Origin: Sphingomonas albertensis
GTDB taxonomy: Bacteria; Pseudomonadota; Alphaproteobacteria; Sphingomonadales; Sphingomonadaceae
NCBI RefSeq assembly: GCF_014358075.1
Contig: NZ_JACONT010000003.1
Span: forward strand, 62,001 to 126,000
Direction: 5' to 3'
DNA: 64,000 nucleotides
Part shown: positions 15,012-19,664 of the stretch, piece by piece
Layout of the letters: each line of letters starts with the position of its first letter
Numbering within the stretch: position 1 is the first letter of the stretch
The notes under the pieces: generated by a model
What the model was told of the DNA's origin: nothing
Database searches by the model: none
The model's input: only the letters and a program-made list of their open reading frames with translations
Made by a program: the position numbers and the translations under genes

Positions 15012-16049
15012 TTAGGCGCCCGCGTTGAGCAGGTCGTGGCGTTTCAGGGCGTGGCGGAGTTGGTCGTAACTTAGCCCTAGCGCTTCGGCAGTGGCGCGCT
15101 GGTTGAAGCGGTGTTCCGATAGCGCGCGCGAGAGCAGGTCGCGTTCGAAGCGGGATACGCGGGACTTGAAGTCCGAGGGGCCCTCCTCGCAGGCGACGAC
15201 CGGGTCCTCGCCGTCTTCCGGTTCGGCTGAACGCGGAGCCACAACCATAGGCTTCGGCGCAGTCGACGCCCCCGGCCGGTGCGGCGACTGGAACGGGTCG
15301 ATCTCGATCGCATCGATCGGCCCGGCCTGTTCCCAGCGATACACCGCGCGCTCGACGACGTTGCGCAACTCACGCACGTTGCCCGGCCAGCGATACGCGA
15401 TCAGCGCGTCCATCGCCGCGGGGCCGAACCCCTCCCAGCGCTCGCGTCCAAGCTCCGAAGCCATGCGCCGCCCGAAATGCTCGGCGAGCACCACCACGTC
15501 CCCGGTCCTCGCGCGTAGAGGCGGCAAGGTGACGACCTCGAACGACAACCGGTCAAGCAGATCGGCGCGGAACTCGTGCCGGTCGACCTTGTCGGGGAGA
15601 TGCTCGTTGGTCGCGGCGACGATCCGCACGTCGACACGCATGGGCCGCGACGAGCCGATCCGGGTGATCTCGCCGTACTCGACCGCGCGCAGCAGGCGGT
15701 CCTGCGCCGCCATCGACAGCGTGCCTAGCTCGTCGAGGAACAAAGTCCCCCCATCTGCCTCCTCGAACCGCCCTACCCGCGCCTTGGTTGCACCGGTGAA
15801 CGCGCCCGCCTCATGCCCGAACAATTCCGCTTCGATCAGCGTCTCGGGCAACGCCGCGCAGTTCATGATGACCAAAGGCTGGTCCCACCGCGGCGACAGG
15901 CGATGCAGGCGCTCGGCGACGAGTTCCTTGCCCGTACCACGCTCGCCGATCACCAGCACAGGTCGGTCCAAGGCCGCCGCCCGCGACGCGCGCTCCAGCG
16001 CCGCCATGAACGTGCCGGACTCGCCGATGACCTGTGTGGTTCGCTCCAT
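15012..16049 (-). CDS. pspF: PspF, sigma-54 activator of the psp operon
   Basis: A 345-residue enhancer-binding ATPase without a receiver domain, the PspF layout. The AAA+ domain begins almost at once: Walker A GERGTGKE, GAFTGA loop that contacts sigma-54, Walker B GGTLFLDELG, and the WPGNVRELRNVV arginine-finger/sensor region. The C-terminal helix-turn-helix of Fis type ends the protein (NQRATAEALGLSYDQLRHAL). A Pro/Glu-rich linker joins the two. The ATG at 16049 is chosen because the AAA+ domain starts right after; an upstream ATG at 16121 would extend into the promoter region. It diverges from the psp operon, as in enterobacteria. PspA would be expected to inhibit it. Confidence 0.92.
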   Translation of the reverse strand: MERTTQVIGESGTFMAALERASRAAALDRPVLVIGERGTGKELVAERLHRLSPRWDQPLVIMNCAALPETLIEAELFGHEAGAFTGATKARVGRFEEADGGTLFLDELGTLSMAAQDRLLRAVEYGEITRIGSSRPMRVDVRIVAATNEHLPDKVDRHEFRADLLDRLSFEVVTLPPLRARTGDVVVLAEHFGRRMASELGRERWEGFGPAAMDALIAYRWPGNVRELRNVVERAVYRWEQAGPIDAIEIDPFQSPHRPGASTAPKPMVVAPRSAEPEDGEDPVVACEEGPSDFKSRVSRFERDLLSRALSEHRFNQRATAEALGLSYDQLRHALKRHDLLNAGA

Positions 16050-16149
16050 GGCGAAGATGTGGCGCGAATTCCTAACTCTTGGCAAGCTTACGGGCGGCAC
16101 CCAACACGCAAAATCGCTCAAACCCCTGCAATTCGGCCATTTTCAAAAC

Positions 16150-16164
16150 TGGCACGACAGATGC
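16150..16164 (+). promoter_or_regulatory. Sigma-54 promoter of the psp operon
   Basis: TGGCACGACAGATGC carries GG at 16151-16152 and GC at 16163-16164, exactly 12 bases apart, matching the -24/-12 consensus TGGCAC-N5-TTGC apart from one T. It faces the psp genes, and PspF is encoded divergently next door. Transcription should start near 16176, giving an untranslated leader of about 45 bases. Upstream PspF sites would be in 16050-16140, but I could not define them. Confidence 0.85.
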
Positions 16165-16220
16165 AGTGCTTGAGGCAACCGCCGAATAGCGGAACCAACC
16201 AACCTCAAAGGGGACCCACC

Positions 16221-16364
16221 ATGTTCAACACCAACATCGCCCGCACCGTCGCCGCCACCCTCTGCACCATCGTCGTCAGCGCGACCTGCGTGCTCGGCGC
16301 GGTCGGTCCGGCAATCGCAACCAACGCAACGCCCATCGCGGTCCATACCGCAATCGTGGCATAA
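16221..16364 (+). CDS. 47-residue secreted or membrane peptide leading the psp operon
   Basis: A short frame between the sigma-54 promoter and pspA. ATG at 16221 has AAAGGGG eight bases upstream, a strong ribosome site. The product begins MFNTNIARTVAATL, continues as a hydrophobic stretch typical of a signal peptide or single transmembrane helix, and has a possible AIA-type cleavage site followed by about 15 residues. It is the first gene of the PspF-driven transcript, so it should be strongly induced under envelope stress. I do not recognise a named family. Confidence 0.7.
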   Translation: MFNTNIARTVAATLCTIVVSATCVLGAVGPAIATNATPIAVHTAIVA

Positions 16365-16416
16365 GACCCCGACGGCTCCCCGAGAGCCTCGGGCCGACCC
16401 CTGGAGTAGGATTTAC

Positions 16417-17082
16417 ATGGGCATCTTTTCCCGCACCCGCGACATCGTCGCCGCCAACTTCGCCGATCTCATCGAGAAGGCCGAAGATCCGTCGAAGATG
16501 ATCCGCATGATCATCCTCGAGATGGAGGAGACGCTGGTCGAGGTTCGAGCCTCCGCCGCGCGCACCATCGCCGACCAGAAGGAGATGCGCCGCCATATCT
16601 CGAAGCTGGAGCAGCTCCAGGACAATTGGACCGAGAAGGCCGAACTGGCGCTGAGCAAGGACCGCGAGGACCTCGCCAAGGCCGCGCTCGTGGAACGCCA
16701 GAAGGCGTTCGACATGGCCGAGCAGCTCAAGGCCGAGGTCGGCGTGCTCGACGATGCGCTCCGCGCGTCGGAAGAGGACATCGCCAAGCTCCAGACCAAG
16801 CTGCGCGAGGCGCGCACCAAGCAGAACGCGGTGCAGACCCGGCTGGAAAGCGCGAACAACCGCACCCGGCTTCGGGAAATGTACAACGGCCCGAAGACGC
16901 ACGAGGCGTTCAGCCGCTTCGAGATCCTCGACCGCCGCGTCGACGAGGCCGAGGGCCGCGCGGATGCGATGGGGCTCGGCGTCGTCAAGACGCTCGAAGA
17001 GGAAATCGCCGAGCTGCGCAGCGACGACAAGGTCAACGCCCAGCTCGCCGCGCTCAAGGCGCGCATGAAGAAGGACGATTGA
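16417..17082 (+). CDS. pspA: Phage shock protein PspA
   Basis: A 221-residue PspA/IM30 coiled-coil protein, full family length. It starts MGIFSRTRDIVAANF with an amphipathic N-terminal helix for membrane binding, contains the family region EDPSKMIRMIILEMEETL near residue 25, and continues as long heptad-rich helices to the end. It would both inhibit PspF in unstressed cells and oligomerise on damaged inner membrane. GGAGTAGG lies before the ATG. PspB follows one base after the stop. Confidence 0.95.
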   Translation: MGIFSRTRDIVAANFADLIEKAEDPSKMIRMIILEMEETLVEVRASAARTIADQKEMRRHISKLEQLQDNWTEKAELALSKDREDLAKAALVERQKAFDMAEQLKAEVGVLDDALRASEEDIAKLQTKLREARTKQNAVQTRLESANNRTRLREMYNGPKTHEAFSRFEILDRRVDEAEGRADAMGLGVVKTLEEEIAELRSDDKVNAQLAALKARMKKDD

Positions 17083-17083
17083 G

Positions 17084-17371
17084 ATGGATGACCTGACCCC
17101 CGTTCTCGTCTGCGCGGTACTGTTCATCGGCCTGCCGTGGGTGATCCTGCACTACATCACCAAGTGGAAGCAGGCGCCGCGGATAACCGAGGAAGACGAG
17201 AAGCTGCTCGACGAGATGCAGATGCTCGCCCGCCGCCTCGAAGACCGCGTGATGACCGTCGAACGGATCATCGCCGCCGACAATCCGGACTGGAAGCCGG
17301 GCCTCGGCACCACGCAATCGCCGTATCTGTCGGACCAGCAATCCGACCGCACTTCTGATCGGAGGAACTGA
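17084..17371 (+). CDS. pspB: Phage shock protein PspB
   Basis: A 95-residue inner-membrane protein with one N-terminal transmembrane helix (about residues 5-25) and a cytoplasmic coiled coil. The coil carries the PspB signature LDEMQMLARRLEDRVMTVER followed by IIAADNPDW. The C-terminal 20 residues are Ser/Asp-rich and extend past the usual end. It acts with PspC to sense membrane stress and relieve PspA inhibition. It starts one base after pspA and ends one base before pspC. Confidence 0.92.
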   Translation: MDDLTPVLVCAVLFIGLPWVILHYITKWKQAPRITEEDEKLLDEMQMLARRLEDRVMTVERIIAADNPDWKPGLGTTQSPYLSDQQSDRTSDRRN

Positions 17372-17372
17372 A

Positions 17373-17756
17373 ATGTCCGGCAGCCGCACGCAGTTTTACC
17401 TCGATAAGCAGAATGCCAAGTGGAAGGGCGTCTGCGCCGGGATCTCCGATTATACCGGGATCGACGTGCTCTTCGTCCGCGTCGCGATGGTCGTGCTCAC
17501 GCTCGCCGGCGGCTTTCCTTGGACGCTGCTCGCCTATTGGCTGGTCGCCTGGATGGGGCACGCCAAGCCAATCGGGCTGTACGAGACGCCCGACGACGCG
17601 AAGTTCTGGCAGGGTGTCCGCTCGAACCCGAAGCGCTCGACCGCCGAGGTCCGGAGCAAGTTCCGCGACATCGACCGCCGCCTCGCCGACATCGAGACGC
17701 ATTACACCAGCCGCAATAGCACCAGCCTTGCGGCAGAGATCGACAGCCTGCGCTGA
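17373..17756 (+). CDS. pspC: Phage shock protein PspC
   Basis: A 127-residue membrane protein. The PspC domain fills residues 5-65 (FYLDKQNAKWKGVCAGISDY, then a hydrophobic helix around LTLAGGFPWTLLAYWLVAW), followed by a coiled-coil tail with RSKFRDIDRRLADIETHYTS. With PspB it transmits inner-membrane stress to the PspA-PspF switch. GGAGGAAC is a good ribosome site before the ATG. The gene lies in the middle of the psp operon, 32 bases before the first of four small relatives. Confidence 0.92.
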   Translation: MSGSRTQFYLDKQNAKWKGVCAGISDYTGIDVLFVRVAMVVLTLAGGFPWTLLAYWLVAWMGHAKPIGLYETPDDAKFWQGVRSNPKRSTAEVRSKFRDIDRRLADIETHYTSRNSTSLAAEIDSLR

Positions 17757-17788
17757 GACGCGGCGTCGATGAAAAAGGGGGAAAGACC

Positions 17789-18064
17789 ATGCCACCGGAA
17801 GTTGGATTTATACTGGGCACGATGTTTGGTACGTTCGCCACATTGATGATCCAAGCATTCGGTCGCCGCAAGGCGCGGATCGCGGTCAAGGCCGCCAACC
17901 TGGACGCGGAACGCAGCATCAAGCTGCTCGACAGCGAGAACGAACGGCGCACCGGCCAGATCGACCGCTTGCAGGAGCGAATCCAGACCCTCGAACGGAT
18001 CACGACCGATCCCGCCGAGCGCACCGCACGCGAAATCGAGGCGCTTCGCCTCCAGCCGAACTAA
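17789..18064 (+). CDS. Small membrane/coiled-coil protein, PspB-like (1 of 4)
   Basis: A 91-residue protein with an N-terminal hydrophobic helix (residues 5-23) and a cytoplasmic coil containing SENERRTGQIDRLQERIQTL and ERITTDPAERTAREIEALR. The coil is nearly the same over about 42 residues as in the next gene, and the RIxxLERI core echoes PspB. It is in the psp operon, so it is likely made under envelope stress and may pair with PspB, PspC or PspA. It is not pspD or pspG by any motif I can see. Confidence 0.75.
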   Translation: MPPEVGFILGTMFGTFATLMIQAFGRRKARIAVKAANLDAERSIKLLDSENERRTGQIDRLQERIQTLERITTDPAERTAREIEALRLQPN

Positions 18065-18076
18065 GGAGATACTGAT

Positions 18077-18388
18077 ATGGGATGGGGTGGACCTGGGTTC
18101 GTGCTCGCGATCATCGCGATCACGACTATCGGATGGATCGCGAACAACTGGATCCGTACCAAGCACGGCTACCCGCCGAGCGACGACTGGGGCAACACCA
18201 TGAACTGGGGTGGCTCGCAGAAGCAGGACCCGGCGGGCGAGCGAAAGGTCGAACTGCTCAGCAGCGAGAACGAGCGACTGACCGGGCAGGTTTCCCGTCT
18301 CGAGGAACGGATTGCGGTCCTCGAACGCATCGCCACCGATCCCGCCGAGCGCACCGCCCGCGAGATCGACGCCCTCCGCGACCGCTGA
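18077..18388 (+). CDS. Small membrane/coiled-coil protein, PspB-like (2 of 4)
   Basis: A 103-residue protein starting 12 bases after the previous gene, with AAGGAG upstream. The N-terminus is a Gly/Trp-rich hydrophobic helix (GPGFVLAIIAITTIGWIANN), then a Trp/Gly/Asn-rich linker, then a coil with SSENERLTGQVSRLEERIAV and LERIATDPAERTAREIDALR. The shared coil with its upstream neighbour points to a recent duplication, while the membrane parts differ completely. Confidence 0.75.
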   Translation: MGWGGPGFVLAIIAITTIGWIANNWIRTKHGYPPSDDWGNTMNWGGSQKQDPAGERKVELLSSENERLTGQVSRLEERIAVLERIATDPAERTAREIDALRDR

Positions 18389-18423
18389 GCCGTCGCCCGA
18401 ACGCTATCACAGGAGACAAGATC

Positions 18424-18672
18424 ATGAATGGTGGACAGGTAATGGTCGTGATGATCGTCCTGATCGTGATGATCGCCGGCATCGTCAAATCGCGGCACAA
18501 GAGCGCGCGACATGCAGAAGGCGCTTCGCTGATGAACGACCCCGAGGCGGCGCGGCTGCGCGACGAAGTGCAGCAGATGAAGGAGCGCATCCAGGTGCTG
18601 GAGCGCGTGATCACCGACAACCACAAGAGCGTCGATCTCGACCGAGAGATCGAGCGGCTCCGCGACCGCTAA
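18424..18672 (+). CDS. Small membrane/coiled-coil protein, PspB-like (3 of 4)
   Basis: An 82-residue protein with a Met/Val/Ile-rich transmembrane helix at residues 5-22 and a C-terminal coil, EVQQMKERIQVLERVITDNH, then DLDREIERLRDR. The RIQVLERVITD core matches the two upstream paralogues and the PspB coil. ACAGGAGAC lies before the ATG at 18424. Same operon and probable regulation as pspABC. Confidence 0.72.
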   Translation: MNGGQVMVVMIVLIVMIAGIVKSRHKSARHAEGASLMNDPEAARLRDEVQQMKERIQVLERVITDNHKSVDLDREIERLRDR

Positions 18673-18684
18673 GAGGAGGCGGAC

Positions 18685-18924
18685 ATGATCGAACCCAACG
18701 TCTATATCATCCTGGCGCTGGCGAGCCTTGCGGGGCTGGCGATGATCGTCGCCGGCGGGCTGGCGGGATGGCGCGGCTGGCTCTCGCTGCGGCGGATGGA
18801 GCTGGGCCAGATGCACGACGGCGGCATGCCGGTCGCGGTATCGACCGGATCGCGGATCGAGATCGCCGACCTCAAGGAGCGCATCAAGAAGCTCGAGGCG
18901 ATCGCCGCCGGGGTGGATTTGTAA
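18685..18924 (+). CDS. Small membrane/coiled-coil protein, PspB-like (4 of 4)
   Basis: A 79-residue protein, 12 bases after its neighbour, with GAGGAGG upstream. One long N-terminal hydrophobic helix (residues 6-30), a Met/Gly-rich linker and a short terminal coil (IADLKERIKKLEAIAAG), a shortened version of the shared module. It closes the operon; the family A repeat begins about 20 bases after its stop. Confidence 0.7.
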   Translation: MIEPNVYIILALASLAGLAMIVAGGLAGWRGWLSLRRMELGQMHDGGMPVAVSTGSRIEIADLKERIKKLEAIAAGVDL

Positions 18925-18944
18925 GGCCTTAACCGTTGAAAAGA

Positions 18945-19049
18945 ACCACCCCGGCGGAGGCCGGGGCCCAATTGGGGCACGGTTATGACGAAGTTAGCCC
19001 GTCATTATACCCACCTCTCCAATTGGGCCCCGGCCTTCGCCGGGGTGGT
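18945..19049. repeat. Family A inverted repeat
   Basis: Arms of about 31 bases beginning ACCACCCCGGCGGAGGCCGG and ending CCTTCGCCGGGGTGGT face each other across about 44 bases. The arms nearly match those at 4847-4952. It lies just after the psp operon and could serve as its transcript end. Confidence 0.8.
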
Positions 19050-19121
19050 GGACTTCAAATGCTGGGGGTTGGTCGTATCAGGTAGTTGATGCGCTACCTT
19101 CGACCAGCTACCGCCGCTTCC

Positions 19122-19529
19122 ATGGCCACCCTCACCGACATCCGCGAGGAATATGACTTCCTCGAACCCGACGATCGATACCGCCTGCTGATCGATCTCG
19201 GCAAAGAGCTCGAGCCGATGCCGGATGCGCTGAAAACCGATACGACGCTGGTGCGCGGATGTTCGGCGTCGGTGTGGGTGTATCCGACCACCACCGACGA
19301 TGGCCGGCTGCATTTCCTGGCGGACTCGAACGCCGCGATCACCAAGGGGATCATCGCGCTGGTTTTGCTGACGGTGCAGGATCAGGCGCCCGGCGAGATC
19401 GTCGCGACCGATATCAAGGCGGAACTCGCGCCGTTCGATCTGAGCAAGCAGTTGAGTTCGAACCGGACGCAGGGAATCCCGAACATGATCGCATTGATCC
19501 GGGAAACAGCCGAGCGCTACGCGGGGTAA
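19122..19529 (+). CDS. sufE: SufE family Fe-S assembly protein
   Basis: A 135-residue SufE-like sulfur acceptor. The conserved Cys is in LVRGCSASVWVYP near residue 46, preceded by the family helix DDRYRLLIDLGKELEPMPD. It would take persulfide sulfur from a SufS-type cysteine desulfurase for Fe-S cluster building. The ATG at 19122 starts the conserved region; in-frame codons upstream (19086-19121) add an unlikely RYLRPATAAS prefix. The rest of the suf operon is not in this window. Confidence 0.9.
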   Translation: MATLTDIREEYDFLEPDDRYRLLIDLGKELEPMPDALKTDTTLVRGCSASVWVYPTTTDDGRLHFLADSNAAITKGIIALVLLTVQDQAPGEIVATDIKAELAPFDLSKQLSSNRTQGIPNMIALIRETAERYAG

Positions 19530-19536
19530 AATTTCG

Positions 19537-19662
19537 CTCCTCCCCCGCCAGGGGGAGGTGGCGCCGAAGGCGACGGAGGGGGAGGACACGGAACAGCGGT
19601 TCTCCCTTTCCTCCCCCTCCGTCTGGAAAGTGCCAGCCACCTCCCCCCGGCGGGGGAGGATC
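19537..19662. repeat. Family B inverted repeat
   Basis: CCTCCCCCGCCAGGGGGAGG at the left is mirrored by CCACCTCCCCCCGGCGGGGG at the right. The middle holds the GTGGCGCCGAAGGCGACGG segment seen in other copies. It fills the gap between the convergent sufE and ferredoxin genes. Confidence 0.78.
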
Positions 19663-19664
19663 GT

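Follow-up and report, generated by a model that had tools for sequence, protein, structure and literature searches.

An array of small predicted membrane-and-coil genes in the psp operon of Sphingomonadaceae

Background

Among the closest described counterparts of the proteins considered here is a fragment of Escherichia coli PspC comprising the transmembrane segment and the tail (PspC40-119). It binds PspA and, on overexpression, induces psp in the absence of PspB; a zipper mutation in the fragment abolishes PspA binding, and stress-dependent (pIV) induction needed full-length PspC, not fragments (PMC3068692). The location of the PspC tail is disputed between PMC3068692 and PMC5596341, one of them placing it in the periplasm with a topology switch and the other in the cytoplasm. 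The small accessory proteins PspD and PspG belong to the enterobacterial Psp response (PMC9239133). As to enlargement of the operon itself, Ravi et al. 2024 (PMC11237479) refer in a single line to 'PspB duplicates' in psp operons, a line that gives no types, order, family restriction or anchor exchange; the words Sphingomon-, Erythrobacter and Novosphingobium are absent from the main text of that paper, to which, supplements aside, our search was confined. The literature that we searched, which comprised neither subscription papers nor supplements, contained no account of the array types, their order, their restriction to a family or the exchange of anchors described below.

Here we describe an elaborated psp operon, for which that single printed line is what we found to be known beforehand. 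It was encountered in a stretch of 64,000 nucleotides from Sphingomonas albertensis (hereafter the window), taken from a genome assembly of 80 contigs and 4.05 Mb, where pspA, pspB and pspC are followed by four further genes (genes 1–4) of what we call the array. Like PspC40-119, the array proteins are predicted to consist of one membrane helix and then a coil with a RLxx(L/V)E...EIxxLR pattern; unlike it, they are encoded by separate natural genes, lack the PspC N-terminal domain, have varied anchors and occur in several copies. They share with PspB the size, one N-terminal helix, a cytoplasmic coil and the place in the operon, but genes 1–4 stay below the PspB cut-offs, genes 1–3 carry an extra C-terminal EIxxLR, and a genuine pspB is also there. 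PspD and PspG are likewise small and belong to a psp setting, but no PspD or PspG model is among the Pfam and NCBIfam matches of genes 1–4 (E up to 1).

The psp locus of the window

The window holds a standard psp locus, with a divergent pspF, a sigma-54-like site, a leader ORF, pspA, pspB and pspC (table 1), and each of the four psp products passes its NCBIfam equivalog cut-off. A similar sigma-54-type site is found within 400 nt upstream of pspA at 38 of 73 loci. The leader ORF matches neither a Pfam nor an NCBIfam family. With an HMM that was started from this ORF and two of its relatives, matches in the same place were obtained at 25 of the 77 loci introduced below, and no shuffled control passed. 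At many of the remaining loci, a short ORF of other spelling stands before pspA, such as M[YF]DRxFFxxKLG....

The four short, closely spaced genes that the original prediction had placed after pspABC are indeed there, in tandem and on the same strand between pspC and sufE; the gaps in front of them measure 32, 12, 35 and 12 nt, and each is preceded by a purine-rich, Shine-Dalgarno-like stretch. A separate promoter, which had been named as counting against the prediction, did not emerge: a simple consensus scan of positions 16000-19200 returned no sigma-70-like site (0.6 expected), and sigma-54-like sites lie inside the arrays of 2 loci as compared with 3.6 expected from shuffles. Downstream, the start codon of the sufE-like gene was picked by position, its Shine-Dalgarno sequence being not clear. 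This gene is flanked on both sides by GC-rich inverted repeats (18936-19058 and 19535-19663), and parts of the second element recur elsewhere in related loci, which is how a dispersed repeat would behave.

Table 1. Features of the psp locus in the window (positions are those of the window; array types are explained in the text).
Feature	Position	Strand	Remarks
pspF, sigma-54 enhancer-binding activator, divergent to the operon	15012..16121	-	TIGR02974 475 bits (cut-off 443.6)
sigma-54-type promoter-like site TGGCACGACAGATGCA	16150..16165	+	one mismatch to the scan pattern
leader ORF, 47 aa, N-terminal half hydrophobic	16221..16364	+	between the sigma-54-like site and pspA
pspA	16417..17082	+	TIGR02977 271 bits (cut-off 243)
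pspB	17084..17371	+	PF06667 83.6 bits and TIGR02976 76.1 bits, both above cut-off
pspC	17373..17756	+	TIGR02978 109.6 bits (cut-off 104)
array gene 1, type zeta (anchor and first half of the coil of the zeta kind, C-terminal tail alpha-like)	17789..18064	+	
array gene 2, type alpha	18077..18388	+	
array gene 3, type delta, anchor form 'GGQ'	18424..18672	+	matches PspB weakly, short of the cut-off
array gene 4, type epsilon, at the end of every array that has it	18685..18924	+	
inverted repeat of 40 nt (88%)	18936..19058	none	after the array, before sufE
sufE-like gene, right-hand neighbour of the array	19122..19529	+	PF02657 116.9 bits

The array across Sphingomonadaceae

PspA (TIGR02977) is present in 189 of 199 genomes of Sphingomonadaceae. 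We retrieved 76 psp loci, of which 73 come from as many other genera with a listed position and three from the genus of the window; together with the window itself they make 77 loci and represent 74 of 91 sampled genera. In the interval from pspC to sufE, or to where the view ends, 307 small ORFs were called at these loci, and 303 of them represent eight recurrent types, named alpha, beta, gamma, h, delta, D, epsilon and zeta. The four ORFs dropped (L012_2572, L034_2474, L041_984 and L050_2449) are short, unrelated or a piece of pspC; two weak epsilon-like ones below the 35-bit line (L021_2325 and L052_1997) were retained. The array of the window reads zeta-alpha-delta-epsilon, the matches of genes 1–4 to the respective HMMs being partly circular, since the zeta model was started from gene 1 and each of the four genes is among the members of its model.

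A six-frame census with the type HMMs, which were built from the same loci as those counted, found at least one array gene at 76 of the 77 psp loci (window included) and 321 genes altogether (mean 4.2, range 0-8), with L018 as the sole locus devoid of an array. A census based on ORFs had given four loci without an array; its codon score was trained on array genes that are mostly GC-rich, and it is for this reason superseded by the six-frame count. The counts cover psp loci, not other genome positions; in the window's own genome, a search for further delta-like matches returned none at E values up to 10. Judging from these comparisons, the array is a family-wide feature of Sphingomonadaceae and the four genes of the window are its local version.

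There are 39 different gene orders among the 77 loci (genes sorted by segment end), and they conform to a nearly fixed order, a permissive template, written after the data had been seen, being broken at four loci. Epsilon is the final gene at all 71 loci that have it and stands immediately 5' of sufE at 65 of the 70 loci with sufE in view. The genes are tightly packed, with a median spacing of 14 nt and 89% of 230 spacings not exceeding 50 nt. At four loci (L017, L019, L033 and L036), the coil of adjacent gamma and alpha proteins is followed by an additional C-terminal tail, common to the neighbours, with a (D/S)xGVPL-like motif.

Predicted topology

A PspB-like layout, i.e. a single N-out helix followed by a cytoplasmic coil, is predicted for the array proteins. 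An excess of K/R on the C-terminal side of the most hydrophobic stretch, which predicts a cytoplasmic coil, is found in 299 of the 303 members, including every member of the types alpha, delta, epsilon and zeta, and a Kyte-Doolittle value of at least 1.6 is reached by this stretch in 289 of the 303 when all types are pooled. One membrane helix and a coil in each protein, as originally stated, is thus what these predictions return, with a weak point in zeta, the type of gene 1, whose stretch is weakly hydrophobic and reaches 1.6 in one of three members. The motif RIxxLER(I/V), claimed for all four coils, is present in three of them, gene 4 having RIKKLEAI.

AlphaFold2 models the alpha protein (gene 2) with helices at 6-30 and 52-102 and a loop between them (mean pLDDT 77, pTM 0.35); its model of PspC was too poor for use (pLDDT 57, pTM 0.24). 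Among solved structures, PspC found no match, and the alpha/beta profile hit generic coils only, with E values of 0.064 or worse.

Relationship of the coils to PspC and PspB

The array coils are resembled by the C-terminal tail of the window's PspC (RDIDRRLADIETHYTSRN..LAAEIDSLR). With an HMM made from the C-terminal tails of 65 PspC proteins, scores above a 10-bit line were obtained by 50 of 51 beta, 25 of 36 alpha, 22 of 38 delta, 11 of 33 D, 16 of 62 gamma, six of 13 h and one of three zeta proteins, and by none of 67 epsilon proteins; among the controls, the same line was passed by 0/77 PspA proteins, 0/303 heptad-preserving shuffles, 0/303 reversed sequences and 1/909 residue shuffles. 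An HMM of the PspB coil gave more than 10 bits for 39 of 51 beta, 13 of 36 alpha, 21 of 62 gamma, four of 13 h and one of three zeta members and for no member of delta (38), D (33) or epsilon (67), with one of 303 reversed controls above the line on each PspB model and one of 909 shuffles on the coil model. By median, gamma obtains more bits from the PspB models than from the PspC tail, and h does so from the PspB-coil model.

Profile comparison with hhalign relates every type except epsilon to beta and delta at 96.8-99.9%. The coil types are linked to PspC at 64-96%, to PspB at 20-79% and to PspA at less than 8%, and PspC comes ahead of PspB in six of the seven, gamma being the exception (PspB 77, PspC 71). 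The alignments run from PspC columns 39-45 to 126, roughly from the second helix to the end, with delta restricted to the tail (90-126). Composition contributes part of the signal, because beta aligned with its own reversed profile gives 53%. PspB and PspC themselves are related at only 15%, through the membrane helix, so that the PspB and PspC relations of the coils do not yet make one relation, as far as profiles can tell. Epsilon is related to delta (89%) and to neither PspC nor PspB. Generic coiled-coil similarity, which had been foreseen as a possible undoing of the original prediction, is ruled out by the shuffled, reversed and PspA controls together with the profile comparison, with a reservation for the 53% of reversed beta.

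Taken singly, the window's genes present a different picture from that of their types. On the PspC-tail HMM, genes 1–4 score 8.5, 9.9, 9.1 and -1.4 bits, all under the 10-bit line, and on the PspB-coil HMM 12.8, 9.2, 3.8 and -1.1 bits; gene 3 reaches 15.7 bits on a whole-PspB HMM. By these scores, genes 1 and 3 are closer to PspB, and gene 2 favours neither (9.2-9.5 bits on the PspB models against 9.9 on the PspC tail), so the putative PspC link of the window's genes rests on the types rather than on single-gene scores. As for public models, genes 1–3 obtain 13.2, 11.4 and 23.2 bits from Pfam PspB (PF06667, cut-off 25.6) and 16.8, 10.9 and 25.3 bits from TIGR02976 (cut-off 51.7), with gene 4 matching neither, and none of the four matches the PspC domain PF04024. 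Gene 3 aligns with positions 48-121 of TIGR02978 at 17.8 bits (cut-off 104), which falls short of a PspC domain in two segments. Gene 4 has no Pfam or NCBIfam family above cut-off.

The label 'PspB-like', under which the genes had first been described, therefore appears fair but incomplete: for genes 1 and 3 the PspB models outscore the PspC tail, all four genes stay short of the PspB cut-offs, and gene 4, counted among the PspB relatives, has no detectable link to PspB or PspC. The array genes could be plain duplicates of pspB, adding to PspB or making it more diverse, which is what the one published line on 'PspB duplicates' (PMC11237479) would imply; the higher PspB scores of genes 1 and 3 fit with this, as do the position of gene 3 just under the Pfam cut-off and a gamma member of L020 that passes it (26.9 versus 25.6 bits). 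We nevertheless consider such an origin improbable, given that the true pspB sits alongside the array, that six of seven coil types are nearer to PspC by hhalign, that the coils, as in genes 1–3, end in an EIxxLR stretch seen in PspC and absent in PspB, and that epsilon is unlike both proteins.

A possible role as membrane adaptors

We favour, with a probability of a little under one half (about 0.48), the reading that the genes encode extra membrane adaptors presenting a PspC-tail-like module to PspA and PspB, by which the inputs of one stress response would be widened or customised. Proteins of the types alpha, beta, gamma, delta and zeta would each have a single N-out/C-in anchor and, on the cytoplasmic side, a coil that is related to PspC's C-terminal half, the relation to PspB being seemingly less clear or, in some members, equal. 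They would be made from the pspA transcript under PspF and sigma-54, and each coil may dock on the partners of the PspC tail, namely PspA and/or PspB. Docking of PspA would release PspF and place PspA at the membrane, and what each adaptor senses, be it a membrane protein or a state of the membrane, might depend on its particular anchor. In its simplest form, the model thus supposes several adaptors with a common tail facing PspA/PspB and different parts facing the membrane; their effect could be to switch the response on, to damp it or merely to place PspA. The adaptor reading is countered by the scores of the window's own genes, as genes 1–3 do not reach 10 bits with the PspC-tail HMM and two of them, genes 1 and 3, are matched better by PspB models. 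Furthermore, a protein consisting of a transmembrane segment and a tail may not transduce a signal alone, because only full-length PspC gave pIV-dependent induction (PMC3068692).

The same relation of the coils to the PspC tail would also be expected of dampers, i.e. proteins whose coils compete with the PspC tail for PspA or PspB, so that the array sets a threshold and adds no inputs. According to the title of Flores-Kim & Darwin 2016, cytoplasmic interactions between PspB and PspC silence the response in Yersinia, which agrees with this idea; we regard it as unlikely, since it leaves unexplained the several distinct anchors and their variation between close strains.

In these arrays nature has placed a tail-like module on many separate anchors, and these differ between strains with identical PspA, PspB and PspC; such strains offer ready-made controlled comparisons for how the PspC tail signals. 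Part of the Psp machinery in a large family of environmental bacteria may have been overlooked, because the array genes are short and mostly lie under annotation cut-offs.

Anchors and coils of related genes

The original prediction saw in genes 1 and 2 one coil module copied onto two anchors, with about 42 nearly identical residues. The coils are similar, but the figure was overstated: 34 of 49 aligned residues are identical, with 32 of 42 in the best stretch, and the gene tails have a 23-nt identical run of DNA in common. Zeta relatives with the same kind of anchor and other coils exist in other members of the genus and at seven of 80 named loci. Within the coil of gene 1, the first 30 positions hold six zeta-leaning and three alpha-leaning residues, the last 20 hold one and nine, respectively; this manual count (frequency cut-off 0.4) set six zeta proteins with a like stalk against 71 alpha proteins and left out the five zeta proteins of L012, L133, L163, L173 and L180, which have another stalk, so that the comparison rests on a small, selected set. 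Gene 1 resembles a zeta gene that ends in an alpha-like tail, a mosaic, as we infer, that is common to L202 and in part to L061. Genes 1 and 2 hence look like two separate old types that are alike mainly at the coil end, and the idea of a single copied module is not supported. What did hold of it is the broader notion of a related gene family in the psp operon, in which conserved coils are joined to different anchors, the differences being seen between close strains. Concerted evolution of coils within genomes was rejected: none of 19 type pairs, nor alpha-zeta (n=3), gave p<0.05, the lowest value being 0.067 for alpha-beta, in a test that omitted three of the 303 members lacking the coil motif pattern and three with a short anchor.

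Judged by gene 4, the nearest named relative of the window is Sphingomonas faeni ALB2 (L107), at 99% among the best 80 of 454 matches, from which the window's own record is possibly absent. The two do not differ at any amino acid of PspA, PspB and PspC, and their nucleotide identity is 0.970 in pspA, 0.989 in pspB, 0.966 in pspC and 0.970 in epsilon. In alpha it is 0.623 in the anchor and 0.918 in the coil, in delta 0.603 and 0.958, and zeta is missing from S. faeni ALB2. Among the 45 pairs formed by ten close strains, identity of the delta coil is 0.960 when the anchor form is the same (20 pairs) and 0.957 when it is different (25 pairs); the corresponding values for pspA are 0.942 and 0.943. 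On the pspF-pspA tree of close strains, only one of whose eight inner branches is starred, the window groups with S. faeni ALB2 as its sister (support 99/97), yet their delta anchors differ. On this tree of 11 taxa the delta anchor form requires four changes, as compared with a shuffled mean of 3.9, whereas a quick tree of 77 taxa requires eight changes, the shuffled mean being 13.9 and the minimum of 300 shuffles 10; the anchor form therefore carries signal at depth and none among close strains. The anchor forms are recurrent, not endlessly new.

Values of dN/dS are 0.025-0.061 for alpha and delta coils, 0.15-0.41 for their anchors, 0.022 for pspA and 0.094 for epsilon; the one zeta pair gives 0.19 for the anchor and 0.15 for the coil. 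As dN/dS shows constraint, the array genes are probably real proteins, with looser anchors. Positive selection on the anchors was not seen, none of their values exceeding 1.

It is possible, though we hold it to be clearly less probable than the general adaptor reading, that the array works as a set of plug-in sensors, with interchangeable anchors that are swapped between strains by recombination near the conserved coil and feed one PspA/PspF switch. A lineage would then alter its stress detection with PspA, PspB and PspC unchanged. Like coils with different anchors may have arisen in another way, as conversion of the coils could leave the same picture as exchange of the anchors. A special case of the adaptor model would be an arms race with phages or toxins, in which the anchors bind foreign membrane proteins, e.g. 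secretin-like multimers, and vary to keep up. PspBC of Yersinia are reported to form a complex with mislocalised secretins (PMC5596341), and the delta anchor forms follow no tree among the 11 close strains; the anchor dN/dS and the recurrence of the forms speak against it, and we give this version little credence.

Relatives of the array genes at other positions

Beyond Sphingomonadaceae, the array types nearly vanish from the genomes searched with their profiles. The alpha/beta profile matched five of five genomes of the family and, among 284 others of the class, gave six matches that are weak and confined to the coil; the match in one genome outside the family (G284) lies within the tail of that genome's own pspC. 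The epsilon profile matched 83 of 86 genomes of the family versus three of 61 others of the order (E 2e-5 to 1.3e-4), and the delta profile five of five versus five of 284, with one strong match in G408 (E 3.7e-19). The latter is a lone delta-like gene in another alphaproteobacterial family, located beside dut- and coaBC-like ORFs (L210:3479-3709, minus strand), where the 7 kb read contain no psp gene; it is possible that it represents a source of the array or an escapee from it. At two loci from a family of the same order (L208 and L209, family f146), a lone gamma-like small membrane-coil gene is present, again with no psp gene in 7 kb.

Such stand-alone genes (L210 and L208), together with epsilon having no relation to PspB or PspC, would be in keeping with scaffolds that make no contact with PspA, PspB or PspC, the coils assembling with each other for another envelope function and the genes riding on the psp promoter. 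This seems to us a poor prospect, considering that the array is found at 76 of 77 psp loci and that epsilon is part of both second pspA operons read.

In both genomes with two pspA genes whose second locus was read, the second psp operon consists of pspA, pspC and epsilon. Epsilon is thus probably a separate, fixed partner of the PspA-PspC pair. At these loci (L229 and L230, genomes G049 and G186), a leader-like ORF precedes pspA, and no pspB or other array gene is in view. Another genome (G206) has an isolated second gene that ends in the epsilon motif ARIEIADLRARIKRLEAIAAGVDL and has a different anchor (L231, C2 near 3012455-3012550, minus strand); it lies far from the only pspA of that genome.
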